NCBI RefSeq assembly: GCF_007745175.1
Contig: NZ_CP036271.1
Location: 248,001 to 312,000 of the forward strand
Reading direction: 5' to 3'
Length of the DNA stretch: 64,000 nt
DNA from: Caulifigura coniformis
GTDB taxonomy: Bacteria > Planctomycetota > Planctomycetia > Planctomycetales > Planctomycetaceae
Notes under the pieces: generated by a model
The model's input: the letters and a program-made list of their open reading frames with translations, nothing else
What the model was told of the DNA's origin: nothing
Database searches by the model: none
Made by a program: the position numbers and the translations under genes
Part shown: positions 40,640 to 57,730 of the stretch, piece after piece
Position numbering within the stretch: the stretch's first letter is position 1
Layout: every line of letters starts with the position of its first letter

Positions 40640-41178
40640 TCGCAGACCTCCCCGGGAAAGTCTTCCGCGAGCACCTTTCGGACGCGATCGAGCTTCTCGA
40701 TCAGTTCCCGCGGAGTGACCGGAATCTCGTCCTCACCAGCCGCGTCGTGCGCCGCCTCCTCCTTCAGCCAGAACGTCTGGGCCGACACCGTTCCCTTCAT
40801 CGCTTTCAGATACATGGCGGCCCGGACGTTCTCCCCGAGCGTTTGGGGAACGGGCTTCATGTGCCGACGGAAGCGCGCATCACGCTCCATCGTCAGCCGG
40901 GCCGATTCCAGGGACACCCCCAGTTGCGAACAGACTGCGGCCGGCGACGCCCCCTGCGACACGAGCCGCACGAACTCCTTCTGTTGCGCCAACGTCAACG
41001 GCACGGGCTCCGTCCACGTCTCCGTGATCCCGCCCGCTTCAGACGTCACTTCGCCGTCTCGACCAGCCTCACGACCCGAGACGACCGCCCGCGTCCCGGT
41101 TGTCGAAGATGTAGTAGACCGGTCGTGCGTACCGGCTTTTGTCGTACGTTTCCTGTGAGACGAGTTTTCGGCTGCCAT
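40636..41178 (-). CDS. Small HTH protein, terminase-small-like by position
   Basis: Up to 180 residues. The first 40 are Ser/Thr/Arg-rich and overlap the end of the GNAT frame by 110 bp; an alternative GTG start at 41049 gives a 136-residue protein that avoids the overlap. The core LTLAQQKEFVRLVSQGASPAAVCSQLGVSLES is a helix-turn-helix of the type seen in terminase small subunits. The C-terminal part is helical and charged (ELIEKLDRVRKVLAEDFPGE). Its 4-bp overlap with the terminase-large-like gene supports a TerS-TerL pair. Confidence 0.65.
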   Translation of the reverse strand: MAAENSSHRKRTTKAGTHDRSTTSSTTGTRAVVSGREAGRDGEVTSEAGGITETWTEPVPLTLAQQKEFVRLVSQGASPAAVCSQLGVSLESARLTMERDARFRRHMKPVPQTLGENVRAAMYLKAMKGTVSAQTFWLKEEAAHDAAGEDEIPVTPRELIEKLDRVRKVLAEDFPGEVCE

Positions 41179-41679
41179 CCTTGCGCCGCCCTCCGTAAAT
41201 CGATGAATGTCCTGTGCGCGACTGCACCTTCCTCACCCCGCCTGCGACTGTCGGGACGCGAACGAATCCCGCCCTCTCGAAGAAGGGATTGATGCGCCCC
41301 ATCTCCGTCAGCGCTTCAATCCACGGAAACCGGCACAGCTGACACGAACGCCGGACGAATTCCGACCCGATCCCCGCGCCCCGGTATGTCGGATGCAGCA
41401 CCACCCGCGACAGCAGAACCAGGTTGTGGTTGAGCGAACGCAGTCGCAGCCGGTCGAACTGCCCGCTCCGTCCGAAAAACCGGTTCCGTCCCGCCAGCGA
41501 CAATGGCGGCGTCGAGAACACACAGATCCCGACCGGCTCGTCGCCATGCCACAGCAGCGTCTGGAACCGCGTCAACGCCAGTCGGTGACTCCGATAATGC
41601 CACCCAGCGAAATACGGCCAGTCGCCACGGGTCGCCTCGCTGATCCACAGCTCCCCCGCGAAGCTGACTCTTTTTTTTT
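41069..41679 (-). CDS. GNAT acetyltransferase part of a COG2401-like protein (second half after frameshift)
   Basis: This frame continues the ABC ATPase after a -1 shift at the A9 run. It reads KKRVSFAGELWISEATRGDW, then PYFAGWHYRSHRLALTRFQ, then a GNAT fold with VGICVFSTPP, the acetyl-CoA loop LHPTYRGAGIGSEFVRRSCQ and WIEALTEMGRINPFFERAGF, ending in KSRYARPVYYIFDN. A stand-alone start exists only at 41575, inside the conserved region, so independent translation is unlikely. ABC-ATPase plus acetyltransferase in one chain is the COG2401 arrangement as I recall it. The acceptor substrate is unknown. Confidence 0.7.
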
Positions 41680-42393
41680 GCGACCCGCGGGCCCCATCGC
41701 CGCCGGCGACTCACGCGCCTCAGCACGCACGACCTCGAACGTCCCCTCGAGTCCGCACCGCACCTGCACATCGGGCGACAGGTCTTGCGCCACGTCCTCA
41801 TGCGTCGTCGCCAGCAGGAAACCGGTTCCGGTCCGTTCGGCCAGGCGGCGGATGTTGAAGGCGATCACTTTGGCCAGCGTCCGGTCGAGCGTCGCCGTGA
41901 ATTCGTCCGCGACGATCCAGTCCGGCTTTTCCGCCAGGGCCCGCGCCAGCCGGAAGCGGTATCGCTGGCCATCGCTCAGTTCACACGGGCGCCGCAGGAG
42001 AAGTCGGGCCTCGCTCAACCCGCACTGGGCCAGAAGCTGCATGGCGTCCAGCGTTTCGAGCGGAAGGGCGTCGACGAGCAACTCGTCCCCCGCCGGCAGA
42101 TCCTCGATCCACAGCACCCTGGCTCCGGGCGGTCCTTCACCGGCGTCCGCTGAAACGACGCCCCCGCCAGACGGCCCCTGCAATTGCAGAGCGGCCGCCC
42201 GCATGAGCGACGACTTCCCCGATCCGGAAGGCCCGGTAAACAGCACCACGTCGCCGGAACGAATCGGAAGATCCAGGTCCTCGGCCAGGTGATGCCGTCC
42301 CTGTTCGAAGCCGATTCCGAAATGGTCCATCACGCGCGCGGCGCGAACGGTGCAGGTTTTCGGAAGAAAATCGTGGGCAACGGTGATTCGCAT
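41572..42393 (-). CDS. ABC-type ATPase part of a COG2401-like protein (first half)
   Basis: A 273-residue frame. The ABC ATPase domain has Walker A FTGPSGSGKSSLMRAA, a signature-like CELSDGQRYRFRLARALAEK, Walker B PDWIVADEFTATLDR and the switch His in LLATTHEDVAQ. There are no transmembrane segments, so it is a soluble ABC protein. After residue 238 the zero frame leaves homologous-looking sequence (KKKESASRGSCGS and onward) and ends 35 residues later, while the -1 frame continues into a GNAT domain. It is upstream of the HTH and terminase-like genes in an apparent operon. Confidence 0.8.
   Translation of the reverse strand: MRITVAHDFLPKTCTVRAARVMDHFGIGFEQGRHHLAEDLDLPIRSGDVVLFTGPSGSGKSSLMRAAALQLQGPSGGGVVSADAGEGPPGARVLWIEDLPAGDELLVDALPLETLDAMQLLAQCGLSEARLLLRRPCELSDGQRYRFRLARALAEKPDWIVADEFTATLDRTLAKVIAFNIRRLAERTGTGFLLATTHEDVAQDLSPDVQVRCGLEGTFEVVRAEARESPAAMGPAGRKKKESASRGSCGSARRPVATGRISLGGIIGVTDWR
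41671..41679 (-). other. A9 slippery run joining the ABC and GNAT frames
   Basis: On the coding strand the sequence is CGC followed by nine As and GAG. Zero-frame codons are AAA AAA AAA GAG; moving back one base gives AGA GTC AGC TTC and opens the GNAT frame. The run satisfies the heptamer pattern for -1 slippage and could also promote RNA polymerase slippage. A plain one-base insertion (or assembly error) would look the same. Confidence 0.7.
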
Positions 42394-44890: not shown

Positions 44891-45190
44891 TCACTCTCCG
44901 ATGATCTTGACCATCACCCGCTTCGGACGTCGTCCATCGAACTCTCCGTAGAAGATCTGCTCCCACGGGCCGAAGTCCAGCTTCCCCATCGTCACCGCCA
45001 CGACCACCTCCCGCCCCATGATCTGCCGCTTCATGTGGGCGTCGGCATTGTCCTCTCCCGTGCGGTTGTGGAAGTACGTCGCCGGCGACGCATCGAACGG
45101 GGCCAGCTTCTCCAGCCACAGCTTGTAGTCGTGATGCAGTCCTGCCTCATCATCGTTGATGAACACCGAGGCCGTGATGTGCATCGCGTT
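44891..45190 (-). pseudogene. yjbQ: yjbQ, C-terminal part, separated from its start by the mobile element
   Basis: This is the last 99 codons of a YjbQ/UPF0047 protein (annotated in databases as secondary thiamine-phosphate synthase enzyme). It starts at the element junction with Asn-Ala-Met: [20 protein letters not shown], then [18 protein letters not shown], then [19 protein letters not shown]. The first 41 codons are at 57693-57571. The in-frame upstream sequence now attached (45191-45298) is element DNA and unlike YjbQ. Joined at the shared TT, the two parts give 140 residues, the usual family length. Confidence 0.85.
45189..45190. other. attL crossover dinucleotide (TT)
   Basis: The left junction reads GCATCGCG-TT-CGAATGGG. 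Sequence to the left continues yjbQ and sequence to the right is element DNA. Only TT is shared with the right junction. In the excised circle the joined site would contain the 12-bp palindrome CCATTCGAATGG. Confidence 0.8.
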
Positions 45191-45284
45191 CGAATGGGGT
45201 AATGGGTTACTGCACCTCATTTGAGTTCTTGATCCCGGGACGCACGGGGAGACTCCATAGGACTCCTCCAACGAAGGATGCGCG

Positions 45285-46214
45285 ATGCAAACCGACACCG
45301 TAGATCAGGTTGAGTCCCCTACCAAGTCACTGCCAACTGTCACCACGGACGACTTCGTCATCCTGACGTGTCACTTCAATCCGCAGGGTTATCGAAGACC
45401 GGTGGAGAACTACCACCGTTTCCGGGAAGCTCTTGGCGGACTTGCCGAGTATCTGTTCTCCGCCGAGCTGTCCTTCAACGGAACCTTCGAGACCGACGCC
45501 CAAATCCGTCTGCACGGGGATCGTCGAAACCGGTGCTGGCAAAAGGAGGCGATGTTGAACCTCCTTCTGCGTCAGCTTCCTCCATCGATCCGCTATGTCG
45601 CGTGGATCGACCGGGACATCAAGTTCCTCAACGCCACCTGGATGCGGGAGGCCGTTGAGATGCTCGCTTCCGGTCATTTCGCAGTCCAGCTGTTGGAGTC
45701 ACTGGTCATGCTCGACCGGTGGGGGATCATGAACGACCTCCGGGACGGTGTCGTCGTCACCTCCAAGGACGGTCTGTTCAAGGGCTTTCACGGAGCTGCG
45801 TGGGCCGCACGCAAGGACTATCTCGATGCCATCGGAGGACTGCCATCCCGTCACATCGTCGGGGGTGCAGATAGCCTCATGGCAGCGACCTGGCTTGGGA
45901 GAGGTCTGGACTACCTGCCCCGTGCGGGAGTCTCGAAGGGGCTCATTCGGTGGAGTGAACGCTGGGCTAAGGGAGCCCGTGACGCGATGCACGGGATGAC
46001 CTGTGGACACGTCCCCGGAACAGGGATGCACTTCCATCACGGTGATCGGACAAACCGGCGATACAACGACCGCCACACCTTGCTGCGGGCGCACGGGTTC
46101 GACCCGGACGTACATACGCGGGTAAACGCAGATGGTCTGATCGAGCTCCACGTCCCGCCGGCACTCGCCTCGACCATCGAGGATTACTTTGTCGGTCGCC
46201 GGGAAGACGAGTAG
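45285..46214 (+). CDS. Glycosyltransferase-like protein (GT-A type)
   Basis: A 309-residue protein preceded by GAAGGA. It opens [20 protein letters not shown] and contains a DxD-like metal-binding motif in [18 protein letters not shown], followed by an acceptor-side region [20 protein letters not shown] and a His-rich segment [20 protein letters not shown]. This fits GT-A glycosyltransferases of the kind found in phages. Targets could be DNA, virion or cell-surface sugars. It is the first gene inside the left end and overlaps the region that would follow the integrase in the excised circle. Confidence 0.65.
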
Positions 46215-46350
46215 CTCCGTCGCCGGGAATGCGGCTGTCCTTTCGTCCGGCTGCCCTGGGCTACCGACCCACCACCCGGAACACGCCGGCGAAAGGACGG
46301 GCTCATCTCGGGCGTGACGGCTTGGTGTTTTAGAACCACTGGCCATCACC

Positions 46351-46422
46351 AAATGTCGTTGCGAACTTATCCCCGATTGCCAGTGATGGTCATGGGCCAT
46401 CGCCGGGGCAATCACGACATTT
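46351..46422 (+). ncRNA. Candidate structured RNA between the glycosyltransferase and recombinase genes
   Basis: AAATGTCGT (46351-46359) and ACGACATTT (46414-46422) form a perfect 9-bp closing stem. Inside, CCCCG (46371-46375) pairs with CGGGG (46404-46408) and an inner GATGG/CCATC arm closes a small loop. Nested pairing of this extent in a non-coding gap suggests a functional RNA or a protein-binding DNA site. No known RNA family is recognised. Confidence 0.45.
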
Positions 46423-46464
46423 AAGGCGTACGGGTAAGGCGGAGTAGCTACCGCCCGACACGAT

Positions 46465-46512
46465 CCCTCCCGGACGCTGTGGTTCGTCCAACCGCCACAG
46501 TGTTCGGGAGGG
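46465..46512 (+). promoter_or_regulatory. 18-bp stem hairpin just upstream of the recombinase gene
   Basis: CCCTCCCGGACGCTGTGG (46465-46482) pairs throughout its length with CCACAGTGTTCGGGAGGG (46495-46512) if two G-U wobbles are allowed; the loop is 12 bases. It ends 22 bp before the recombinase ATG and has no U-tract after it. It may be a leader hairpin or an operator controlling the recombinase. Confidence 0.6.
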
Positions 46513-46534
46513 GGTCTCCCGAAGGTTGGACAGC

Positions 46535-47254
46535 ATGGACGTTCTCGAAGCGGACTATGGCACTCCTCCACGGAGGAGTCAGGAATATCAGACGCGGGGT
46601 AAACCGAGCGACTTCCTCCATCATCTTCCCGCCCTGCTATCGCTCACCGCAGTCCTGCGGATTGTCCTCTACGTGCGCGTCTCCGGTCGGAATCAAGCCC
46701 GCGGAGACAACCTCGAACATCGCCTCCAGTACCTCCGCAACAGGCTGCGGGGTCTGAACGTCGAAATCATCGCCGAGTTTACTGAGGTAGGATCCGGGTG
46801 GAAGAACGAACGCCCTCAGCTTGCCAATGCGATCACATTCGCCCGGGAACACGGTGCCGTTGTCGTCGCCGCGTCGGTGGACCGATTCGTTCGCCATCTG
46901 GCCTACAACAGTGACCGGGATGAACACTTCGTCCCTGTCGTCGCGGACTTCCAGCAGTTGATGAGAGAAGCCGGTTCGGTTCGCCTCGCGACGTGCATGC
47001 ACCCTGACGCCACGCCTGTCGAGGTCGCCAAGGAACAGACGAAGTGGAATCCGAACACTGGTCGTCCGAAGAAACGTAAAGCCGGTTCACTACGTGATCG
47101 CCACAAGGGACGACTCGTCTACGACCAGCTTCGCTGGATGTGCATTCTCCAGATTCCACTGCGCCGAAAAGCCGCCATCCTCAAGGTCCCGGTGAGTACC
47201 GTTCAGAGGTGGCAGGATATGACGCTGGAAGAGTGGTACGACTTCACCCATTGA
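46535..47254 (+). CDS. Divergent serine recombinase (resolvase family)
   Basis: A 239-residue protein (in-frame TTG at 46526 is an alternative start). After 38 unusual residues the resolvase catalytic domain begins RIVLYVRVSGRNQ, with the catalytic Ser after Arg-Val. It continues DNLEHRLQYLRNRLRGLN and the Arg cluster VVVAASVDRFVRHLAY. The C-terminal HTH reads RRKAAILKVPVSTVQRWQ. It is shorter than large serine integrases and lacks their zinc ribbon and coiled coil. Its role may be resolution, inversion or transposition within the element. Confidence 0.75.
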   Translation: MDVLEADYGTPPRRSQEYQTRGKPSDFLHHLPALLSLTAVLRIVLYVRVSGRNQARGDNLEHRLQYLRNRLRGLNVEIIAEFTEVGSGWKNERPQLANAITFAREHGAVVVAASVDRFVRHLAYNSDRDEHFVPVVADFQQLMREAGSVRLATCMHPDATPVEVAKEQTKWNPNTGRPKKRKAGSLRDRHKGRLVYDQLRWMCILQIPLRRKAAILKVPVSTVQRWQDMTLEEWYDFTH

Positions 47255-47419
47255 TGGGGTGTACCATTTTTGCCGGAAGCTTGTCCGGTGATTACCTGAT
47301 TGCGAGGCAAATCGCTGGACGCCAAGGGTTATCGCGATTCTGTTTGTCGTCGACGAAACCCTAGGACATTCCCTGCCCAGCCTTCAACCTCATTCTGCCT
47401 TCCAGCTTGCTTCTTACTC

Positions 47420-48148
47420 TCACAATCCTCCTTGAAACACAATAGTGCTAGCTCCGATGCGATGAGGGTAGTAGTTCCACGCAATCGCTGCCTGCTGAAT
47501 GAACTTCTTTGTGGAACCAGGGGGAAGTTTTAGTTCACGATCTGTGTCACTGAAAAATATAACTCTCGTATTCTCATGAGAAGGACGTGACCCCATCCAC
47601 GATTGCAAGATGGAAATAATATCACTGTCATCAAGTTCAATGACGGTTTCCGGTTCTGGCTGGGTAACCGGTGACTCAGCCACCGGCGGTTTGACGGTGT
47701 ACTTTGCTAATTGCTTCCGGACCCGGTTGCATGCAGGGCCAAGAGCGGCAACGAGATTTTCATCCTGCCGATTAGGTTCATAGGTCGCCGGCGTGATGCC
47801 GAGCAGGTCGGTTGGAAGATGGAAGTCCTCGACGCCTCTTGGGATCACGATGAAGCTTCGTTCCTTTCCCAGACGTCCAATGAACAGGCCAAGCTCGAAG
47901 ATGACGTTGTCTCTCGCCACCGACACCGTTTCTTTGCGCAGCGTCGTGATGTCGTCTGGTCCAAACACGAACAACCCGAAGTCTGCCTCATCAAGAGCGT
48001 CCACCAAAGACTCAATCGAAAACTTGGACAACGCGAAGATGCCCTGAGTCCAGACGGTCACGTCGGCATCGTGCTCCAAGTTTTCTTGGGCGGCGTAGGC
48101 GACCGACAGTTGCTCAACTGACGACCCGATGAACAAACGTGGTTTCAT
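47420..48148 (-). CDS. TIR-like (CAP12/PF10137-type) nucleotide-binding protein, possible defence effector
   Basis: A 242-residue protein. Residues 1-150 match the predicted nucleotide-binding TIR-like domain: [10 protein letters not shown], then [35 protein letters not shown] and [20 protein letters not shown], where the Glu of NVIFE aligns with the TIR NADase catalytic residue. The C-terminal 75 residues ([40 protein letters not shown]) form an unrecognised domain. Such domains are NAD-degrading effectors in cyclic-nucleotide-triggered systems; no cyclase gene is adjacent. The gene is distinctly AT-richer than its surroundings. The start at 48148 is chosen because the domain begins there. 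Confidence 0.8.
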
Positions 48149-48574
48149 GCCGCTGGCTCGTGACTCAAGAGATGCAGGTAGGCCCGTAACGCGAGGAGGC
48201 ATTCTATCGGCGAACGACGTCGCTGCACCTATCCAGCCAGCCCATACAAATGGCTTGTTGAGACTGGAGGGTATGATTTTGAGTACACCACTCCATCTTT
48301 CACGACACGCGATTGAGAAATCCGGTTTTCGTAGAAAATAGTGCATCAACTTACTGTACAATAGCTTGCGAACCACAAGCCTATTTCGCTGCCCGTGAAA
48401 TCCACGTGATTCTCGGCTGACACCTCAATCTCAAAACGACATAGAGGGGACGGAAGCGCCCCCGTCCTCGCGTTGGGCCCCCAAAACCGACTTCGGTACG
48501 GGGACCAAGGAGGACGTGTCGGGAACCAGTAAGCATCGCAACGACCCGTAGCCGTCCGGGTCGTCGCAGGGTGG

Positions 48575-48604
48575 CTCAAAACGGTAGTCGACTACCGTTT
48601 TGAG
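48575..48604. promoter_or_regulatory. Perfect 30-bp palindrome, probable operator
   Basis: CTCAAAACGGTAGTC is followed immediately by its exact reverse complement. It lies 17 bp before the ATG of the DUF3102 gene, just upstream of its AGGAG site, in the 473-bp gap between divergent genes. The position and perfection suggest a repressor operator; as RNA it would fold into a 15-bp hairpin. A second hairpin with arms ACGACCC and GGGTCGT lies just upstream (48541-48564). Nothing else was recognised in the gap. Confidence 0.7.
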
Positions 48605-48621
48605 ATCAGGAGACGGGAATC

Positions 48622-49428
48622 ATGTCGGAACAATCGCTTGAGGCACTTCGGGACGAAGCCAACAGTGCCCACAACTCAGTTCTCAGTTCGATGCGGGACG
48701 TGGTGAAGTTCGCCAAGCAGGCAGGTGACGCACTCACGGCGGTCAAGAAGCTGGTCGGTCACAAGAACTGGACGAACTGGCTGACCGACAACAACAACTT
48801 CAAAGCGTCTCCGGAAACAGCCAGGGCATACATGCGGATCGCCCGGAACTGGGAGAAACTCGAACCGGAGTTGGAGGCCAACCCACTCCTGACACTGGAG
48901 AAGGCGCTCGCGTTTCTGAGAGTAGCCGCCCTGCCACAGCCTGAAGCTCACCACGAGATGTCGGATTGGGGAAAAGTACGTCAGGAGGTCCGCAAATGCG
49001 CAACGATGATCGGGCAACGGATTGCCAACTATATTCGCACATGTTGGTCAGCCGAGGAGGTCGTGTACTTATGGTGTCATTCGAAGATAGACGCCGATTT
49101 GCTTGACTTCCTCGATGCCATCAGGAGTGAGATCGCACCGTTCTCTGAGGTGTACGTCGACTACTACATTGCGCACCGCAGAATAATGGCACACGTTGCC
49201 GCAGGTCGGGGGAACGAACTGCCCGCCGACGAGCCGTACCCGGTCGACACGTTTCGCGAGGCGTTGCGGTCACGGTTCACCGATGAGACCGCGTTGACCC
49301 CCTACCAGAAGCAGAAACTGTCCCGTTGGCTGACTCCAATTCCGGCGCCCATCGAACATGACGACGACGGCACGGACGACGACCCAACACAGCCAGGTCA
49401 GTTAGTGCGTAAGGAACTCGCGGTGTGA
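48622..49428 (+). CDS. DUF3102 protein
   Basis: A 268-residue protein. The N-terminal 105 residues fit DUF3102, which occurs in phage and plasmid genes: NSVLSSMRDVVKFAKQAGDA, LVGHKNWTNWLTDNN and SPETARAYMRIARNW. The rest is a helical domain of unknown type with an acidic C-terminal region (HDDDGTDDDPTQPG). It is probably a DNA-binding or regulatory protein of the element, controlled through the palindrome at its start. Confidence 0.75.
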   Translation: MSEQSLEALRDEANSAHNSVLSSMRDVVKFAKQAGDALTAVKKLVGHKNWTNWLTDNNNFKASPETARAYMRIARNWEKLEPELEANPLLTLEKALAFLRVAALPQPEAHHEMSDWGKVRQEVRKCATMIGQRIANYIRTCWSAEEVVYLWCHSKIDADLLDFLDAIRSEIAPFSEVYVDYYIAHRRIMAHVAAGRGNELPADEPYPVDTFREALRSRFTDETALTPYQKQKLSRWLTPIPAPIEHDDDGTDDDPTQPGQLVRKELAV

Positions 49429-49432
49429 TGCG

Positions 49433-50140
49433 TCAGTGGGAGCCACTGTTGGCAACTGCAGGAGGGGAAGTTTCGCCCTCCCCTCCTAATGGCCCCGATT
49501 CAGTTGGAGATGCGGATTTTGACGGCCCCATCCATCTCTCAATCCACTCCTGCACTTCCGGAGACGGAGTATCAGATGGGGTCTTCCAACCGCTCGTGTA
49601 CTTGCGGTCAACACGGGCTTTCCATAACCGATCCATCTCCTTCGCTATCTCAATCGCCTCATCGTTCAACTTCACCAAGCAGTCATCCGGGGGTGGGAAC
49701 GTGCCCTTGTTGCCCACGAGGACTTGCCCCATCACGCACCACCGCTGAAGTCGCGTTACTACGGGTACGGATGCCTCGCCGAACAGCAACGTAAGCCACT
49801 TCGCGTCTGAACGAAGATCGATCGCCTTCGCCCGGAGAATTTCGCCAAGCTGGTAACGATGTTCCTTGTCGGCGATGACGCGAGGGTCCGACTGACTGGT
49901 GAATCGCCGCACCTTGCTATTGTACCTTGATATTCGCAGGTCCATGAATGCCTGAGCGAATTCGTGTCGGTCTCGCTCTACCTGCCGAAAGGCTTCAAAC
50001 GCCTCTCGATGAAGATTTGCCTTACGGCCAGCACGTTGTGCGAACAAATGAGCGATGTACGCCGACGCCAACGGCAGAAACGCTTTTTCCGCGTACTGCC
50101 ACGCAGTCGAAATCGCGGGGCCCAAGTCTAATGATGCCAC
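49433..50140 (-). CDS. Hypothetical protein with a possible membrane-anchoring helix
   Basis: A 235-residue protein. The GTG start at 50140 is preceded by AGGAAG; an ATG at 50191 would add 17 residues. A hydrophobic segment AFLPLASAYIAHLFAQRAG near residue 20 is followed by a charged helical region (REAFEAFRQVERDRHEFAQA) and a low-complexity C-terminus (GPSKSASPTESGPLGGEGE). It ends 4 bp from the converging DUF3102 gene. No family is recognised. Confidence 0.55.
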   Translation of the reverse strand: MASLDLGPAISTAWQYAEKAFLPLASAYIAHLFAQRAGRKANLHREAFEAFRQVERDRHEFAQAFMDLRISRYNSKVRRFTSQSDPRVIADKEHRYQLGEILRAKAIDLRSDAKWLTLLFGEASVPVVTRLQRWCVMGQVLVGNKGTFPPPDDCLVKLNDEAIEIAKEMDRLWKARVDRKYTSGWKTPSDTPSPEVQEWIERWMGPSKSASPTESGPLGGEGETSPPAVANSGSH

Positions 50141-50191
50141 GGTTCTTCCTCTGACATGCAGGCTAGGTAGTCCCCTTCCAGACGCCCTCAA

Positions 50192-50663
50192 CGACGATTA
50201 GGGAACAAAAGATCATGAAATCCTATCAGACGGATGAATAGGGCACGAATTTGCTACGAAACGCATCCGCACGGGCAGCAGGGGGACGGGTGGGCTACCG
50301 GATCAAGCGTACCCCGAGGGAAACGCCATCCGGGTGACGTGATCGAACTCCCCCATTGGCCCGGCCCACCACCACGGGTTACGTGCGGTACCAACCCCCG
50401 GGATTCGCGTAGGGCGCGACCAAACAGCCCAGGGCGGGTTCCTGTACCCGGACCAACCCCAACGCGGGACACGGGGACGTAGGGTGTCCAGTTTAGGGGT
50501 CGCAAAACCCACCCCCGTAACCCCCACGTTTCCCGGGGTCTGTGGGGTCCGGAAACGGTGTACGGGTTAGGGGACCTTGGGGAGCCAGGGCCACCGGGCG
50601 TTTGGACAATGGGCAGCGATGCGCCGTTGCATCGAACCAAACCACCACGCCGAGACCAACCCG
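50192..50663. other. Non-coding, palindrome-rich region of the element
   Basis: About 470 bp with no convincing gene. It is unusually rich in runs of three to five Gs or Cs and short hairpins, for example GGACAC/GTGTCC around 50468-50490 and CGGGT/ACCCG around 50434-50449. It could be a replication origin, packaging site or structured RNA; no iterons or DnaA boxes are clear. Confidence 0.4.
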
Positions 50664-50954
50664 ATGGCTACCACCAAGACTGCACCGAAGAAGACCCCTG
50701 CCCCTGCCAAGGAAGATGCCCCCGCCAAGAAGTCGCCGGGGGTGATCGCCAGCATCGAGGAGTTCCTTTCGAAGGCTACGAAGGAGAAGCCCATCACCAA
50801 GGAGGGCATTGTGGAACGCCTCGCCAAGCGATTCCCGGACAGGGAGGTGACGGCGCTCACCCGGACCTGTGCATGTCAGGTGCCGGGACGGATGTCGAAG
50901 GAACGCGGCATCAACGTGGTGAAGACCGACGACGGCTTCTACATCAAGAAGTAG
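50664..50954 (+). CDS. Small basic protein with Ala/Lys/Pro tail and winged-helix-like domain
   Basis: A 96-residue protein starting MATTKTAPKKTPAPAKEDAP. The N-terminal 30 residues form an Ala/Lys/Pro tail like those of histone-H1-like bacterial proteins. The rest (IEEFLSKATKEKPITKEGIV, ERLAKRFPDREVTALTRTCA) looks like a small winged-helix. It probably binds DNA. The chosen start at 50664 excludes 29 upstream residues of poor quality. Confidence 0.6.
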   Translation: MATTKTAPKKTPAPAKEDAPAKKSPGVIASIEEFLSKATKEKPITKEGIVERLAKRFPDREVTALTRTCACQVPGRMSKERGINVVKTDDGFYIKK

Positions 50955-51044
50955 TCGACCACGCGGCGAACCAGTGACCGGCCCGGGGATGCACCTCGGG
51001 CCGTCTCCATTTACCGACTGCACCTTGCATCAAAGGAAAGACGC

Positions 51045-51656
51045 ATGTCCAAGATCGCCGTTTACGTCCGGGTGAGCACGTTCGACCAAGAGAAGGGAAT
51101 CGAGTCACAGAAGACGGTGCTACGCGAATACCTCGAAGCCCACGGCATGGGGGAAGCAAGGTGGTACACCGACAGGATGTCCGGGGCGACCACGAAGCGC
51201 CCGGAGTTCGAAAAGCTACAGAAGGAGGTCTTCTCCGGCCGCGTGAAGTGCATTGTCTGCTGGAAGCTCGACAGGATTTCGCGAAGCCTAAAGGACGGGA
51301 TCAATGTCCTCACCGACTGGATTGAGAAGGATGTCCGGGTCGTCGCCGTCGCTCAGCAGCTCGACTTCTCGGGGACTGTTGGTCAGCTGATCGCAACAGT
51401 GTTCTTTGCCCTGGCTCAGATGGAACGGGAGAACCTCCGGGAGAACACCAAACGGGGCATGTACGACGCCCGGCTGCGTGGTGCACGGATCGGCAAGCGT
51501 CCGTCGTTGTTCGCCAAGGACATCGTCCCGCTGTTGGAGAAAGGAATGTCCCTGTCCGGTGCGGCTAAGCATCTCAAGAAGTCTCGACAGGCCGTCTACG
51601 ACTGCCTGAAACGCGAACAAATTGATCTCTCTATTTACACGAGCCATCAAAAATAA
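51045..51656 (+). CDS. Small serine recombinase (resolvase/invertase)
   Basis: A 203-residue protein of the Tn3-resolvase/DNA-invertase group: SKIAVYVRVSTFDQEKGIES with the catalytic Ser, CWKLDRISRSLKDGINVLTD with the Asp-Arg cluster, LDFSGTVGQLIATVFFALAQ followed by MERENLRENTKRG, and a C-terminal HTH (AAKHLKKSRQAVYDCLK). It is complete. It lies in mid-element before the terminase genes and may resolve dimers or invert a segment. Confidence 0.92.
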   Translation: MSKIAVYVRVSTFDQEKGIESQKTVLREYLEAHGMGEARWYTDRMSGATTKRPEFEKLQKEVFSGRVKCIVCWKLDRISRSLKDGINVLTDWIEKDVRVVAVAQQLDFSGTVGQLIATVFFALAQMERENLRENTKRGMYDARLRGARIGKRPSLFAKDIVPLLEKGMSLSGAAKHLKKSRQAVYDCLKREQIDLSIYTSHQK

Positions 51657-51704
51657 AGGGGCCTATTGTGGCCACCTCGTGGGATGACAACGGGGTGGAG
51701 AGAT

Positions 51705-52073
51705 ATGGCCAAGAAGTATCAACCAGTCGATGAGGCGAACGGTCTTTCGAAGACTTGGACGCCACGTTTTTGGGAACGTACAGACGCTCGGTCTCTTGCT
51801 CGCCGCACCATTCTCTCCCGTCGTGCGGAACTCATCGAAGCTATCGGTGAGATGTCTCCACAGAAGGAGTTGTTGGTTTCTCAGATCGTGTTCTACGGAT
51901 TGATGTTGGAGAGCCTTCAGATCGAGTGCATCGAAACGGGCAAGTTCGAGCCGGGCGTCTTTACATCGCTCACAAATTCTTTGGTCGGCCTCTTGCGCAT
52001 GGTCGGCATCGAGAAGCAGGCTAAAGCGGTTGCCGGCTCATTGCAGGACTACCTGCGGGAGCGGTCCGCATGA
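51705..52073 (+). CDS. Putative terminase small subunit
   Basis: A 122-residue protein starting MAKKYQPVDEANGLSKTWTP after a GGAG site. It is mostly helical (LARRTILSRRAELIEAIGEM; TSLTNSLVGLLRMVGIEKQA) and ends with an ATGA overlap into the terminase large subunit gene. There is no strong motif; the call rests on size, order and overlap with TerL. Confidence 0.6.
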   Translation: MAKKYQPVDEANGLSKTWTPRFWERTDARSLARRTILSRRAELIEAIGEMSPQKELLVSQIVFYGLMLESLQIECIETGKFEPGVFTSLTNSLVGLLRMVGIEKQAKAVAGSLQDYLRERSA

Positions 52074-53533
52074 ACATCATCGAAGCCATTCGTGACGAGA
52101 AGGTGTTTCGGCCGTTCCTTGAGGATGTCGAGGGAGGACTCGGCTCATGGCGAAACTGGATGGTCGCCCTCCGCGCATCGATGGGATTGCCCATCACTGC
52201 AGAGTCGTCCAAGCAGCTCATCCGTCAATGCACGGGTCGAGACCCGGACCTGCTGCCGGAAAACGGCTTCAGTACATCACTCTTTTTGACCGGAAGACGA
52301 TCAGGAAAGAGTCGCGTGGCCGCAGTAACGGCCGCGTATCAAGCGGTCTTGTCTGGTCGGGAGAAGCGTCTCTCGAAGGGTGAGCAAGGCTTGGTCGTAG
52401 TCTGCTCAGTCAGTAAGCGACAAGGCTCAATCATCAAGGGCTATACGCGGTCGATCTTCAAAACCCCACTGCTCGCTCAGGAGGTGGTTGAGGAGACCCG
52501 CGAAGGGTTCACCCTGCGGAATGGTGTCCGCATCGAAATCCTTGCCGGTGACTTTCGAACTGTCCGTGGATTCACGCTGCTTGCCGCCATCGTGGATGAA
52601 GCCGCGTTTTTCGGGACAGACGAGGAGTCGAAGGTCAAATCCGATACGGAGCTGATCCGTGCCATCAAGCCCGCGTTGGCCACGACGGGAGGCCCACTTC
52701 TGCTCACGACGAGTCCTTACGCGAGGAAAGGATTTTGCTGGGAGACGCATAAGAAGCATTGGGGCAATGACAAGGGGACCACATTGGTCTGGAACGCGGC
52801 GTCCCGCGTCATGAATCCCACCCTGCCCCAGTCTGTTATCGACGAGGCGATGCAGGACGACCTGGCCGCAGCAAAGTCCGAGTTCGGTGCGGAGTTCCGC
52901 GAGGACGTCGGAATCTGGCTTCCCCGAGCCGTCATCGAAGGGCTGGTCGTTGCCGGACGGAGGGAGCTTGCCCCTGTCCTGCGTTCGGACATGCGGTACT
53001 TCGCCTTCGCCGACCTGTCCGGTGGACGCAGTGACGACAGTGCCCTCGCCATCGCCCACCGTGAGGACCGCAAGGTCGTGGTCGACTACCTCGGACGGTG
53101 GAGACCACCGAGCAATCCGTATGACGTGATTCGTCAGATGTCCAAGGTCCTGAAGGAATACGGCATCCGGGTCATCACGGGCGACAATTATGCAGCTGAA
53201 TTCTGTGCGAGGGCTTTTGAAGCGTGCGGCATCGGCTACCTGAAGTGCCCGAAGCCGAAGTCGCAACTGTATCTCGAACTCCTGCCCCGGATGTGTTCCG
53301 GAGAGGTGGAACTCCTCGACGACGACCACCTCGTCAACCAGCTCGCCGGTCTGGAGAGACGGACCCGAAGCGGAGGCAAGGATTCGATTGACCATCCGCA
53401 CGGGGGGCACGATGACCTCGCCAACGTGATCGCGGGAGTGGCCGACCTTGCCGGGGCCAAAGTTCTGACGCTCGGTGGATTCGACCTGCTTCAAGACACC
53501 CCAGACGCATCGTTCGATTGGAGTTTCGCATGA
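52070..53533 (+). CDS. Phage terminase large subunit
   Basis: A 487-residue protein. The ATPase domain has Walker A FLTGRRSGKSRVAAV, Walker B LLAAIVDEAAFFG and coupling motif PLLLTTSPYARKG. The nuclease domain has acidic residues in YFAFADLSGGRSDDSALAIA, VITGDNYAAEF and PHGGHDDLANVIAG. It is full-length and apparently intact. It differs strongly from the terminase-like protein at 39128-40639. It would cut and translocate DNA into a procapsid, which the element itself does not appear to encode. Confidence 0.9.
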   Translation: MNIIEAIRDEKVFRPFLEDVEGGLGSWRNWMVALRASMGLPITAESSKQLIRQCTGRDPDLLPENGFSTSLFLTGRRSGKSRVAAVTAAYQAVLSGREKRLSKGEQGLVVVCSVSKRQGSIIKGYTRSIFKTPLLAQEVVEETREGFTLRNGVRIEILAGDFRTVRGFTLLAAIVDEAAFFGTDEESKVKSDTELIRAIKPALATTGGPLLLTTSPYARKGFCWETHKKHWGNDKGTTLVWNAASRVMNPTLPQSVIDEAMQDDLAAAKSEFGAEFREDVGIWLPRAVIEGLVVAGRRELAPVLRSDMRYFAFADLSGGRSDDSALAIAHREDRKVVVDYLGRWRPPSNPYDVIRQMSKVLKEYGIRVITGDNYAAEFCARAFEACGIGYLKCPKPKSQLYLELLPRMCSGEVELLDDDHLVNQLAGLERRTRSGGKDSIDHPHGGHDDLANVIAGVADLAGAKVLTLGGFDLLQDTPDASFDWSFA

Positions 53534-54012
53534 GCACCATCGTTCAACCTCCACTCACACCGCTTCAGGACTTCGACCGTCGTCACCATCTCGACACCGC
53601 AGTCCGGTTCGGTGGTGACCTGTACTTCGAGACGGGGGCCGTCCGGTCTGCAAACCGGCACGCCACGGCTGTCGTCCTTCGGGAACCGGAGTCGTTCACT
53701 GATATTGAGCGTCTGCAGAACCGAATCCAGCACCATTCCAAGATGGCCGAACGATCTGCGGCCGCACACACCGAAGCCCGTAAACGTGTCGCCAGCGAGT
53801 TCGTGACGGTCGTGGGAGACAAGGTGTGCCTCGAAACGTCCCGTCTGTTCCGTCAGACCCAGGACCAGTTCGAACACTGGAAGCGTCTCCACGCGGAAGC
53901 AGTTGCCGAACTTCACAACCTGCCGATCAACGTCCTGATTCGGGAACGGCAAGCCCGCCGTGGTGCGAACATCGAATCCATCCTGACCCCTGAACCTGCC
54001 GGAGACGAGTGA
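53530..54012 (+). CDS. Element protein of unknown function, paralogue A
   Basis: A 160-residue protein with ATGA overlap with terL. It contains DFDRRHHLDTAVRFGGDLYF followed by ETGAVRSANRH, then a helical middle (LQNRIQHHSKMAERSAAAHT) and a charged C-terminus. The same pattern occurs in the next protein, so the two are tandem paralogues. Position after terL is where portal or head genes usually lie, but size and sequence do not fit a portal. Confidence 0.6.
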   Translation: MSTIVQPPLTPLQDFDRRHHLDTAVRFGGDLYFETGAVRSANRHATAVVLREPESFTDIERLQNRIQHHSKMAERSAAAHTEARKRVASEFVTVVGDKVCLETSRLFRQTQDQFEHWKRLHAEAVAELHNLPINVLIRERQARRGANIESILTPEPAGDE

Positions 54013-54491
54013 TGCAAGAGTCCGTGAAACAGTTCGACATCGAGAACGACATCGACACCGCCATCCTGCACAACGGCTGGTACTACTTCAAAACGGGAAA
54101 CATCCGGTCCAACACCACCCCCTCCAACGAGGCGATCATGTATCGCCCGCCGACGGGTCTTGAACGGGTGAACAATCAGTTGATCTATGCGCGCACTCTC
54201 GCACAGATCGCCCGGAAGGCATTCCTCGACCTCAAGAACAGGTTCGTCGACGAAGCCATCGCGGCCACCAAACCCGAGGGCACGCTGTGCACGAATCCGC
54301 AGGTCGCATACGAGCAGTTGAAGCAACTCAAGCAGGTCTACGAGGAGCGTCTGGAACAGTACCGGGAAGTCGAGCAGCAGTACGAACGGCTTCCCGAGAT
54401 CCAGAGACAGCGATCCAGCGAACGTGCCATCGCCGCTGAGAAGCAGCGAGTCAACGACTACCTGCAGGCCCTTCGTAGCATCCGCGTCTGA
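54012..54491 (+). CDS. Element protein of unknown function, paralogue B
   Basis: A 159-residue protein whose ATG overlaps the last base of the preceding stop. Its N-terminus QFDIENDIDTAILHNGWYYF followed by KTGNIRSNT matches paralogue A at Phe-Asp, Asp-Thr-Ala, Tyr-Phe, Thr-Gly and Arg-Ser. The C-terminal half is a strongly predicted coiled coil (EQLKQLKQVYEERLEQYREV, EQQYERLPEIQRQR). It may form hetero-oligomers with paralogue A. Confidence 0.6.
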   Translation: MQESVKQFDIENDIDTAILHNGWYYFKTGNIRSNTTPSNEAIMYRPPTGLERVNNQLIYARTLAQIARKAFLDLKNRFVDEAIAATKPEGTLCTNPQVAYEQLKQLKQVYEERLEQYREVEQQYERLPEIQRQRSSERAIAAEKQRVNDYLQALRSIRV

Positions 54492-54531
54492 CCCCTCACC
54501 AGTTCCCACGTCCGATTCAGGAGTCCTTTCG

Positions 54532-54858
54532 ATGTCCACGTTCCAGATGGTCCACAACGCCGAGCAGCCCAGGTCAAACGAGGCCTTCGTGCCGGATTAC
54601 ATCATGCAGGCCCAGAATCCGAACTACGCACAGACGGCACTGCGGAACTTCGGGGCCTATGTGCACAACCAGACGCCCCCCGTGTCCAACGCGGGCACGC
54701 TGGAACCACTTCCCTTACCTGTCATGAACTTCGAACGCGAGGACGCCCCCAGCGACTCGCGGGAAACGGGGTGTGGTTGCGGTGGTCACCAGCCCACCCG
54801 CAACGCTGCAGCCCCTCAGTTCGCTCCACTGCCCGTTCCGGTGATGTCCTTCAAATGA
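54532..54858 (+). CDS. Small element protein with repeated PLPxPVM motif
   Basis: A 108-residue protein preceded by AGGAG. It has low predicted structure, a repeated short motif (LEPLPLPVMNF and FAPLPVPVMSF) and a Cys-rich GCGCGG segment between the copies. It overlaps the DUF2213 gene by ATGA. No family is recognised; it may be a scaffold or a peptide bound by a partner protein. Confidence 0.55.
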   Translation: MSTFQMVHNAEQPRSNEAFVPDYIMQAQNPNYAQTALRNFGAYVHNQTPPVSNAGTLEPLPLPVMNFEREDAPSDSRETGCGCGGHQPTRNAAAPQFAPLPVPVMSFK

Positions 54859-55541
54859 GCCGGGTCATCACGAAGCAACTGGAGAACCGCCCGCACTTCG
54901 TTACGGAATGCACTCTTCTCGTTGAGGGCATTCATAACGGTTCTGGTGGTCCCCTCTACTACCCTGCAGATGAGCTGCAGCGGTCGGCACCACGCTGGAA
55001 CGGAATCCCGATTGTGCTCTACCACCCCGTTGTGAATGGGGTGGGAGTTTCCGCAATGTCTCCGGAGGTGTTCACCAACCGCCGCGTCGGATTCTGCTTC
55101 GGTGCCCGGATGATCGGGAATCGGCTGGTCGCTGATGCGTGGCTGGATGTGGAACGACTGCAGATCGTCGACTACGACCTCTTCGTCCAACTCAACAAGG
55201 GTGAGGGGCCCATTGAGGTGAGCACGGGCCTGTTCACGTCCAACTCGCCGGAGCGGGGAATCTTCAACGGCGTTGCGTACACGGCCGTCGCCAGAACGCA
55301 TCTCCCGGATCACCTCGCCCTCCTTCCCGGCCAGGTTGGGGCATGTTCAGTCGACGCCGGTTGCGGGTTGCTGCGGAACTCGGAGAACCGGGAACTGGAT
55401 CAGTTCGACCACCTTGCGGAAATCTTCCCATTCCTGAACGACGTGTATGAGCCGGAGACCGACGATGCCCAGAGCGAAGAAGCCGCGGAGGAAGACGAGA
55501 TCGTCGCGTACTACTTCGGCTCGGGTGGTGCCCCGATCTAG
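54855..55541 (+). CDS. DUF2213 prohead-protease-like protein
   Basis: A 228-residue protein resembling phage DUF2213 proteins, which are thought to be prohead proteases or scaffold fusions. It has the early segment YYPADELQRSAPRWNGIPIV, the core GEGPIEVSTGLFTS and the closing pattern RTHLPDHLALLPGQVGACSV. The acidic C-terminus (EAAEEDEIVAYYFG) would fit a scaffold-like tail. In a full prophage it would lie between terminase/portal and capsid; here no capsid gene follows. Confidence 0.72.
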   Translation: MSRVITKQLENRPHFVTECTLLVEGIHNGSGGPLYYPADELQRSAPRWNGIPIVLYHPVVNGVGVSAMSPEVFTNRRVGFCFGARMIGNRLVADAWLDVERLQIVDYDLFVQLNKGEGPIEVSTGLFTSNSPERGIFNGVAYTAVARTHLPDHLALLPGQVGACSVDAGCGLLRNSENRELDQFDHLAEIFPFLNDVYEPETDDAQSEEAAEEDEIVAYYFGSGGAPI

Positions 55542-55551
55542 CTCAACGATC

Positions 55552-55737
55552 ATGTCGCCGCGTAAGAAGCCACCGGTCCCACCCCCGCTGGACTTCTCGG
55601 ACTTGGACATCGGTCCGAACCCGTTCGGGGAAGACGACGTGTCCTTTGAAGAACTTGCATCAGAGGCGATGCGTGCCGAACAGATGATGATGAAGCAATT
55701 GGAGGCCCTGTTCCAACCTCTCCTGCATCGGAAGTGA
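55552..55737 (+). CDS. Small acidic protein downstream of DUF2213
   Basis: A 61-residue protein (MSPRKKPPVPPPLDFSDLDI ... RAEQMMMKQLEALFQPLLHR). A Pro-rich start is followed by an acidic segment and a C-terminal amphipathic helix. It lies 10 bp after the DUF2213 stop on the same strand, so it is probably co-transcribed. No family is recognised. A 257-bp gap to the integrase start follows and holds nothing else that I can support. Confidence 0.45.
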   Translation: MSPRKKPPVPPPLDFSDLDIGPNPFGEDDVSFEELASEAMRAEQMMMKQLEALFQPLLHRK

Positions 55738-55994
55738 TCCGGCAGCGGACCGGGGAGAAAAGACGACACGCGGTTCGGTGGTTGACGCGTGTCGTGGTGA
55801 AGTAACACGTGCCTCTCCCCGGTCCGTTTCGTTGTGATCAACCCGGTGGCTACGTGACCATTTGGGTCCATAGGGAACGGCAGGTTCGGATTCATGCCCC
55901 GAACCGCAGCGTCTCCGGTCATCCCACTCTGCCGGAGACGCTGCCGCCGCCCCCTGATACAACCGTGACGACAGCAGTGGGCAAGGAGTGGGAC

Positions 55995-57572
55995 GTGGCG
56001 AAGCTCAGATTCGGGGCGCTGATTCGCGTATCAACTGAAAAGCAAGAGAAGCTGGGAGAGTCTCTACGGACCCAGAGGGCTGACGCGGAACGCAACGTCA
56101 AAGACATGGGCGGGACGGTTGCCGGGTGGTACGGCGGACAGGAACACGCCACACCGGGCTTCGAGAAGAAGGAACTGGACCGTCTCATCCTCGACGCCAC
56201 CAAGGGCAGGTTCGACGCGGTGATCGTCGCGCACGCGGACAGGTGGTCCCGAGACAACGTGAAGTCCAAGGAGGGTCTGCAGGTTCTCAAGAAGCACCGG
56301 GTCCGGTTCTTCGTCGGCAAGTTCGAGTACGACCTGTTCAATCCCACTCACCAATTCTTCCTCGGCATGACGGCCGAGATTGGTCAGCTGCACGCCAGCA
56401 CTCAGAACCAGAAGTCCATCGAGAACCGGATCGCCAGGGCCAAGAGGGGGTTGCCGACCACCGGAAAACTGCCCTACGGCCGGACGTTTGACCGGAAGTC
56501 GGAGAAGTGGGGCATTGATAAGGAGAAGCAGAAGGTCATCGCCGAGGCGGCACGTCGATATCTGGACGGGGCATCGATGGCAGACCTTGCCAAGAAGTAC
56601 GGCATGAACCACTCCAATTTGCACAAGGTGTTGATGCAGCGGTGCGGTCCGGAATGGGAAATGGAGTTCACGGCGCCGGAGTTCAACATCCACGAGAAGG
56701 TCATCGTCCAAATCCCGCAACTGTTGGACGCGAAGACAATCAAGGCCCTGAAGAAGCGAGCCTCTGCCAACAAAACGTATCTGCATCAGGCGGCGAACGA
56801 CCGTTACCTCCTGAGTGGATTCGTCTTCTGTGAGCAGTGCGGCTACACCCTGTTCGGTCAGACGAATCACAACGGGCACCGCTACTACCGTCACTCCCGC
56901 AAGGACGGTGCGTTGAACTGCGCCTACGACCCCCGTCCGTGGGTGCGTGCGGACGAACTGGAGAAGGCGGTTGTCGAGAGCCTGTTCCGGACATTTGGGA
57001 ATCCGGTTGCCGTCGAGAAGGCCATTGAGGAGGCGACCCCCAACCTCGACAAAGTCCGCAAGGTTCAGCAGCAGATTGTCGAGATTGACGAGGACCTGAA
57101 GAAGATCGCCACCGGACGAGACAAGGTTCTGGATCTCGTCGTCAATGATGCCATCAGTGACCACGACGGCCAGGAAAAGCTACGGGACTTAAAATCCCGG
57201 GAGGCTCGTCTCAAAGAGGAACGGGAGCGCCTCTGCACCAGCATCGGTTCGCTGCCGTCTGCAGACGCCGTGCGTGATGCCGCCAAACGGATCGCCGCGT
57301 CGTTCAACGACGGTTATCCGACCGCATCAGAGTCAAGGATGATGCACAAAATCACGTTGGCCAACTTCGACGTGGAACGCATGTCGGTGGAGGACCGTCG
57401 CTCGCTGGTCCGGTCCACATTCGACGGCACGCTCGCCAACGGCCGTCCGATGGGCGTCTACATCACTGCCGTTGAAGGTGAGCAAGACCACCGCAGGAAA
57501 CAGTGGCAATTCACTCTGAAGGGACATGTTGTCGATGGAATTACAGCAGTAGCTCGTCGTGCTTACCATTGA
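55995..57572 (+). CDS. Large serine recombinase (integrase of the element)
   Basis: A 525-residue protein. The GTG at 55995 with AAGGAG upstream is preferred; the frame upstream to 55809 is low quality. The N-terminal catalytic domain is [20 protein letters not shown] with the nucleophilic Ser, then [12 protein letters not shown]. The recombinase domain contains [17 protein letters not shown], and the zinc ribbon [13 protein letters not shown]...LNCAYDP lies near residue 280. A coiled-coil region ([20 protein letters not shown]) and C-terminal domain follow. It would catalyse attP x attB integration. Its stop codon TGA uses the crossover T plus host GA, so the ending depends on the integrated state. 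Confidence 0.92.
57569..57570. other. attR crossover dinucleotide (TT)
   Basis: The right junction reads GCTTACCA-TT-GACAAGGC. Bases to the left belong to the integrase gene and those to the right to yjbQ. The flanks next to TT differ from those at 45189-45190, so the shared core is exactly two bases. Confidence 0.8.
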
Positions 57573-57693
57573 CAAGGCACAACCCCTCCCGGATGCCGCT
57601 CGCCCGCAGTTCGTCCTGGATCAGCGGCGTGATGTTCAGGAACCCCATCCGCTCGGGGAGTTCGAGGGTGAGATGGCGGGTGTGGGATTTCAT
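57571..57693 (-). pseudogene. yjbQ: yjbQ, N-terminal part, cut by the element
   Basis: The first 41 codons of Yjb[21 protein letters not shown], then [21 protein letters not shown], matching the family's opening strands and helix. It stops at the junction, and the next codon (AAT here, AAC in the left part) is the Asn shared with the C-terminal fragment. It begins 37 bp after the stop of the coiled-coil gene, so yjbQ was probably expressed with it. Confidence 0.85.
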
Positions 57694-57730
57694 GGGAGTT
57701 GCCACTCACAACAAACAGGACGGGCGATTC

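Follow-up and report, generated by a model that had tools for sequence, protein, structure and literature searches.

Phage-inducible chromosomal islands (PICIs) carry an integrase, AlpA, a primase and a gene of the small terminase subunit (TerS) type in a fixed order and obtain the large terminase subunit (TerL) from a helper phage, and the core genes of satellite P4 are those for the integrase, the alpha primase, Sid, Psu and delta. For the present comparison, we drew on sections of PMC10690885, PMC10803314, PMC7947584 and PMC4936722. As far as those sections go, PICIs use the TerL of the helper (in part PMC10690885), P4 depends on the terminase of its helper and uses Sid to redirect the size of the capsid (PMC10690885), and the capsid-forming PICIs (cf-PICIs) encode TerS, TerL and a head maturation protease of their own, together with a major capsid protein, a portal and head-tail connectors, and require nothing but tails (PMC10690885). 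The Mulch and Flayer satellites of Streptomyces phages carry packaging genes (PMC10690885). The phage-inducible chromosomal minimalist islands (PICMIs) of Vibrionaceae are small satellites with an integrase, AlpA and a DUF3987-type replication gene, for which the sections drawn on describe no capsid remodelling genes and do not contain the word "terminase" (PMC10803314). The described satellite families compared here use either the large terminase of the helper or their own terminase plus a capsid. Here, we describe an integrated element of ~12.4 kb (45190..57570, no strand assigned) within a 64,000-nucleotide stretch of DNA from the planctomycete Caulifigura coniformis; this whole stretch, G000:C1:248001-312000 of a 6.76-Mb genome (G000) in a single contig, is referred to as the window. 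The element looks like a member of an undescribed phage satellite family in planctomycetes, because relatives with the same core occur in other planctomycetes and because shell, portal and tail genes were not found in the window element. It is probable that it is an integrated phage satellite, belonging to a family that brings its own packaging and maturation enzymes, lacks structural genes and would obtain particles from a helper. A whole packaging motor and maturation protease without a shell would be a missing middle step among satellites. No planctomycete phage satellite was found in the literature searched, and the finding would extend satellites to this phylum.

The element resembles PICIs and Staphylococcus aureus pathogenicity islands in being a small integrated island without structural genes, with defence cargo and a presumed dependence on helper particles, and its tRNA-integrated relatives, like those islands, have an integrase, an AlpA/excisionase-like gene, a primase and a TerS-like gene. 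Unlike PICIs, it brings its own TerL and prohead protease, and it has a large serine integrase with no primase or AlpA recognized (Pfam and PHROG searches). By the features tested (own TerL and serine integrase), it is not a plain PICI. The relatives in genomes G014 and G139 and a third copy in the C. coniformis genome come closer to the PICI layout, yet they also carry TerL. The integrase, AlpA and DUF3987-type replication gene reported for PICMIs resemble those of the tRNA-integrated relatives, which thus appear close to a PICI or PICMI layout plus a packaging and protease module. With cf-PICIs, the element shares its own TerL, head maturation protease and, by position only, TerS, but the major capsid protein, portal and connectors were not found in it; by the features tested, the lack of a capsid or portal means that it is not a cf-PICI. 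Like P4-like satellites, it is about 10 kb long, has no structural genes and would rely on a helper for particles, but its terminase and protease are its own; P4 core families, including a Sid-like one, did not come up in the PHROG scans shown, in which no search was aimed at them. Mulch and Flayer likewise carry packaging genes but, as described in the sections drawn on, also encode portal and capsid and have no replication genes, which is the opposite division of labour.

Limits of the element and its packaging and maturation genes

The element interrupts a host UPF0047 gene (PF01894), the C-terminal part of which lies at 44894..45298 on the minus strand (PF01894, E = 1e-26, profile positions 21-117) and the N-terminal part of which, a 54-amino-acid piece without a Pfam match that was recognized by eye, lies at 57544..57705, also on the minus strand. 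Since this gene is split, with both junctions read from the sequence inside it, the region has clear ends, and positions ~45,190-57,570 are one integrated element, mobile with its own integrase and defined ends. The core common to both junctions is only about TT, which would fit the action of a large serine integrase. G+C content dropped across 45-58 kb, from about 0.64-0.67 outside to 0.53-0.62 across the element. From left to right, the open reading frames (ORFs) encode an unknown protein, a resolvase-domain protein, a TIR effector (minus strand), a DUF3102 protein, a second unknown protein (minus strand), a basic protein, a small serine recombinase, a TerS-like protein, TerL, two helical paralogues, a small Pro-rich peptide, a prohead protease, a second Pro-rich peptide and a large serine integrase. 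TerS, TerL and the downstream genes overlap by a few bases in an operon-like manner.

The TerL gene (52070..53533, plus strand; type A) matched phrog_2 (E = 2e-18), and its match to Pfam Terminase_6N (E = 2e-4, 21.3 bits) fell just short of the cutoff of 22. The GRRSGKS motif, an acidic residue and several Asp positions, which we take to be the ATPase and nuclease motifs, were invariant in five homologues of about 50-62% identity; judged by these motifs, TerL is intact. The putative TerS-like protein (51705..52073, plus strand) was so designated from its position, its overlap with TerL and its conservation. The prohead protease gene (54855..55541, plus strand, with its start codon at 54855) encodes a DUF2213-like protein without the C-terminal part of its phage homologues. 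It matched phrog_760 (E = 6e-21) and the head maturation protease family phrog_12864 (E = 4e-5), and its match to Pfam DUF2213 (E = 0.01) was under the cutoff. Its residues His60, Ser126 and Asp155/His156 were invariant in all nine aligned proteins, two of them from phages. An AlphaFold model (pLDDT 77) gave the T4 gp21 protease as its best Foldseek match (E = 6e-4, probability 1.00, TM 0.43/0.58), followed by herpesvirus proteases; with both the fold and the catalytic His and Ser present, the modelled protein is a predicted prohead protease of the gp21/herpesvirus protease fold. In annotated phages, the homologue lies between the portal and capsid genes or is named prohead protease. The phage homologues are longer (about 450-570 amino acids from their coordinates), and therefore a part that often serves as scaffold would be missing from the element protease. 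An initial annotation had named TerS-like, intact TerL and DUF2213 protease-like genes, and this held for TerL (phrog_2 and invariant motifs) and for the protease (phrog_760 and gp21 fold), with TerS placed by position only.

Between TerL and the protease lie two genes for helical proteins (plus strand), helical protein 1 (53530..54012; dN/dS of 0.04 between copies in the C. coniformis genome) and helical protein 2 (54009..54491), which served as the family marker in a class-wide profile search. The two are paralogous, as each matched the homologue of the other in the second copy of the element (E = 1e-5). Helical protein 2 was modelled as a helical hairpin (pLDDT 93), and the model had no significant fold match in PDB or BFVD. 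They are followed by a small peptide, rich in Pro and containing Cys, in which two LPxPVM-type motifs were seen by eye (54532..54858, plus strand; no PHROG match); another small Pro-rich peptide, 94% identical in the second copy and also without a PHROG match, is encoded after the protease (55552..55737, plus strand). The peptide after the helical protein varied among elements, often with clustered Cys residues (for example, CCS-x(4-5)-LCxxC) and with repeated short motifs like FAPLxxPxMNF, LPLPVMNF and PDPPxINW (all by eye; counterparts in loci L155, L184, L185 and L187). This may be treated as a first hint of a docking peptide and not as a result.

Pfam and PHROG searches recognized no portal, capsid, connector or tail gene in the window element, in agreement with the initial annotation, which had reported none in the rest of the 12 kb. 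That annotation had also held that structural matches of the proteins encoded at 53530-54858 to portal or capsid would speak against a satellite. In Pfam and PHROG, these proteins had no match to a portal, capsid or tail family, and a portal or capsid hidden among them was rejected because there was no such family match and no fold match to helical protein 2.

Related elements in planctomycete genomes

Gene calls beyond the window came from a custom codon-usage script. Type A TerL was found in 7 of 170 genomes of the family and in 11 of 397 genomes sampled from the class, and the helical protein was found in 18 of the 397 class genomes at E ≤ 1e-4. In total, the satellite family comprised 22 loci in 19 genomes, that is, 18 other genomes and two further places in the C. 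coniformis genome, and the same gene order in all these places is therefore more than chance. TerL was present in 20 of the 22 loci (type A in 12, type B in 8), the TerS-like gene in 19, the helical protein in 21 and the protease in 9. These counts are partly circular, as the loci counted include those from which the TerS, helical-protein and protease profiles were seeded; 15 of the 19 TerS-like loci are seeds of the TerS profiles, and 18 genomes were found via the helical-protein marker. TerL lineages A and B interchange within one gene order, and with two lineages swapped in one architecture, the compatibility of motor and portal is directly testable. Structural profiles derived from one head-tail system gave no portal, capsid, decoration or tail match at the 22 loci except at G013, where the adjoining capsid, decoration and protease genes were rejected as parts of the element and belong to a host cluster.

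Exact direct repeats of 48, 39, 44, 23, 34 and 41 bp in tRNA genes bound six of the elements, with spacings of 12,245, 10,521, 10,270, 10,430, 11,157 and 10,915 bp, respectively; a seventh tRNA-associated element (G190a) runs into a contig end. Among 60 ORFs of the six bounded elements, PHROG matches included six integrases (phrog_1), six TerL proteins, primases and two DUF2213 proteases; of the 44 families matched, the 25 listed included none for a portal, capsid or tail. Primase and AlpA/excisionase-type matches were obtained for the tRNA-integrated relatives. The search for the same module in other planctomycetes, as the initial annotation had proposed, was thus positive in 18 other genomes. 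Moreover, a truncated prophage, which that annotation had named as what would count against a satellite, does not fit a TerS-TerL-helical module that recurs in 22 loci or six relatives bounded by attachment-site (att) repeats, each with an integrase and TerL. The recurrence and the exact repeats ruled out a lone truncated prophage, and the suggestion of a satellite gains support from the bounded element, the module in 22 loci and the six relatives with tRNA repeats.

Two of the relatives reside in C. coniformis itself. The second copy (G000:C1:~3.071-3.084 Mb) shares with the window element DNA blocks of 73-98% identity interleaved with parts that cannot be aligned; the recombinase proteins are identical, whereas TerL has an identity of only about 50% and the integrases are different. 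Between these two type A copies, the small serine recombinase gene had 5 synonymous and no nonsynonymous changes, and the gene for helical protein 1 had 15 synonymous and 2 nonsynonymous changes; purifying selection between the copies is shown by low dN/dS where this could be measured. The third copy (G000:C1:~5,244,678-5,256,970; locus L141, 678-12970) lies in a tRNA-Arg gene between 48-bp repeats and encodes an integrase, a DUF3854 primase, a TerS-like protein, a different TerL of the phrog_9 type and the same helical protein.

The TerL loci G018b, G063a/b, G072a/b and G022b had no helical-protein match and were left out of the satellite count. In loci L192, L193, L194 and L195 (G063 and G072), a type B-like TerL is followed by long helical proteins, and G063 also has large tape-measure-like genes. 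G077, G083 and G086, with weak TerL matches outside the family, were dropped as phage-like clusters with portal-like neighbours by eye. Searches against phages returned only seven weak records for TerL, and the GTDB contig scan returned no TerL relative.

Candidate helpers and alternative explanations

If the element is a satellite, a helper would make procapsids and tails, and the integrase would excise the element. The TerS of the element would recognize its own DNA, and its TerL would dock on the helper portal and fill helper procapsids, which the protease, perhaps together with the helical and Pro-rich proteins, would mature or redirect. The particle would then carry the element into a new cell for integration there. 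Having its own TerL, and not TerS alone, the element would be freed from the terminase specificity of the helper. One candidate helper is a prophage in the same genome (G000:C1:~3,232,000-3,272,000; loci L217, L206 and L216) with a full head-tail module, which encodes an integrase, a helicase, TerS and TerL of other families, a portal, a protease-capsid fusion, a decoration protein and a tape measure. Since lambda-type portals had no match in 4 of the 19 satellite genomes (G188, G190, G272 and G351), a resident helper would not be required.

Another candidate is a conserved head-tail system of the host that resembles gene transfer agents (GTAs; RcGTA and others) in its occurrence in many genera, its division over loci and its very short tape-measure-like protein (only about 225-235 amino acids); in this comparison, it stands as a possible helper and not as the element. 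In C. coniformis, this system is apparently intact and spread over three loci, with protease, decoration, capsid (PF25209) and tail genes at G000:C1:178708-189889, the portal gene (PF05136) at G000:C1:58010-59350 and the TerL gene inside the window but outside the element (39128..40639, or 287.1-288.6 kb, minus strand; phrog_9, E = 6e-27; PF03354, E = 1e-8). Adjoining this TerL gene on the minus strand are a TerS-like ORF of uncertain start (40636..41178; only phrog_4044, E = 0.06) and an ABC-ATPase/GNAT-like gene pair (41069..42393; profiles from two full clusters). The GTA-like TerL was found in 22 of 37 genomes sampled from the family and had no match in phages, and 57 of 170 family genomes had the capsid gene (46 at E < 1e-50, one strong copy each). 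Packaging and head genes lay together in 3 of 9 genomes compared and separately in the other 6. In G001, of the same genus, the GTA-like TerL is present and the capsid has no match, and the capsid match of G021 contains an internal TAA, both of which may be signs of decay. No description of a GTA-like system of this planctomycete family was found in the literature searched, and a conserved, dispersed system in the hosts would be notable by itself.

Whether this system is the usual helper, in place of a phage, so that the element terminase would steer element DNA into GTA-like particles, bears on several of these results, and we regard it as possible but unlikely. In its favour, the system is kept apparently intact in the same genome, and a strong GTA-like capsid (E < 1e-50) occurs in 6 of 7 family genomes with type A terminase versus 40 of 163 others (Fisher P = 0.0017), although this test ignores kinship. 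Moreover, in the TerL tree (midpoint root, long branches flagged, satellite TerLs not one clade), the type B satellite TerLs fall in a clade (98/91) that is sister to 21 GTA-like TerLs (97/93), with known phages far outside (100/100), and the third-copy TerL is 40% identical to the GTA-like TerL of its host. The sister clade, however, also contains nonsatellite TerLs. Satellites also occur where the capsid was not found: G382, G411 and G442 had none, and G188 and G190 were absent from its match list. Counting G050, which has a strong match, 7 of the 10 satellite genomes in the family possess it. A strict tie to this capsid was rejected on account of the first three and of the four genomes without a lambda-type portal match. 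At G013 (L012, C278, 5180-8072), the satellite integrase gene abuts the GTA-like capsid gene, the element being inserted after GTGGA of the last capsid codons; the conserved last ~10 codons were replaced, and the lost tail, DTxxVTKVxG, was kept in all nine other capsids shown. That insertion places a satellite in the very capsid gene but would damage the system, and the prophage with its full head-tail module is an alternative helper. Overall, the association inside the family is suggestive. Slightly more doubtful still is the wider proposal that the satellites are parasites of a vertically inherited GTA-like planctomycete particle, their own terminase and protease causing a domesticated and otherwise nonselective machine to fill its particles with the element; if true, a satellite that parasitizes a GTA would be a relation of a new type between a mobile element and a viriform. 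It is very improbable that the element is a remnant of one or more prophages with portal, capsid and tail genes deleted and packaging genes as passengers. The order of TerS, TerL and, farther on, protease is indeed the phage order minus portal and capsid, and the protease is shorter than its phage homologues, but the same gene set recurs in 22 loci, with TerL at about 50-63% identity and its motifs intact, exact att repeats surround six elements of similar size, dN/dS is low where measurable, and the conserved helical-protein gene had no match in the 10 portal loci examined.

The TIR effector in the window, the ThsB-like TIRs and PDC-M50A beside the G023 element and the PDC-S59 in the G014 element would fit a defence or interference island whose TerS, TerL and protease act as decoys that poison the packaging of incoming phages. 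Such an island appears improbable, as the motor and protease motifs are kept intact and the elements carry integrases and primases at differing integration sites; since satellites commonly carry defence genes too, the two explanations are not exclusive. Least credible of all is an autonomous mini-phage with a portal and capsid too diverged for recognition. About 87% of PHROGs are without function, and G442 has a weak decoration-like gene, but the space from TerL to the integrase in the window fits only proteins of about 160, 160, 109, 229 and 62 amino acids, the helical protein model has neither a portal nor a capsid fold, and the protease is identified (T4 gp21 fold). The satellite interpretation itself has several points against it. 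The helper, excision, packaging and transfer are steps that we infer, and no TerL relative was found in IMG/VR, so that there is no known packaged copy. That structural genes are absent depends on profile searches, of which those run over all 22 loci used profiles derived from one head-tail system, and the G442 gene did match head decoration very weakly (E = 0.06). The TerS-like protein of the window element had no meaningful family match in Pfam and a single chance-level match in PHROG, and no primase was recognized in the window element (Pfam and PHROG). Finally, the G236 locus has the helical protein and protease without a TerL match, G100 has no helical-protein match, and contig ends cut several loci (at least G136, G411, G402 and G190a).

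Recombinases and cargo genes

The large serine integrase gene (55809..57572, plus strand) matched PF00239 (E = 6e-14), PF13408 (E = 6e-11) and phrog_95 (E = 1e-51); its true start is probably near 56000, because homology to the G013 integrase begins at residue 66. The small serine recombinase (51045..51656, plus strand; PF00239, E = 8e-35; phrog_125, E = 1e-46) is the protein that is identical in the second copy. Also conserved in the second copy are a resolvase N-terminal domain protein (46526..47254, plus strand; PF00239, E = 1e-11; 93% identity, dN/dS of 0.19) and a basic Lys/Ala-rich protein identified by eye (50664..50954, plus strand; no Pfam match below E = 0.1). The cargo includes a CAP12/PycTIR-type TIR effector (47420..48376, minus strand; PF10137, E = 4e-32) with PADLOC matches to the CBASS TIR effector (E = 5e-51) and PycTIR (E = 1.5e-39), and the adjoining ORFs that were scanned showed no cyclase partner. 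Two cargo ORFs had no Pfam, PHROG or PADLOC match, one of them (45285..46214, plus strand) not common to the second copy and the other at 49433..50191 (minus strand). A DUF3102 cargo protein (48622..49428, plus strand) matched PF11300 (E = 1e-5) above the cutoff. In the relatives, it was PADLOC that recognized the ThsB-like TIRs and PDC-M50A next to the G023 element and the PDC-S59 inside the G014 element.

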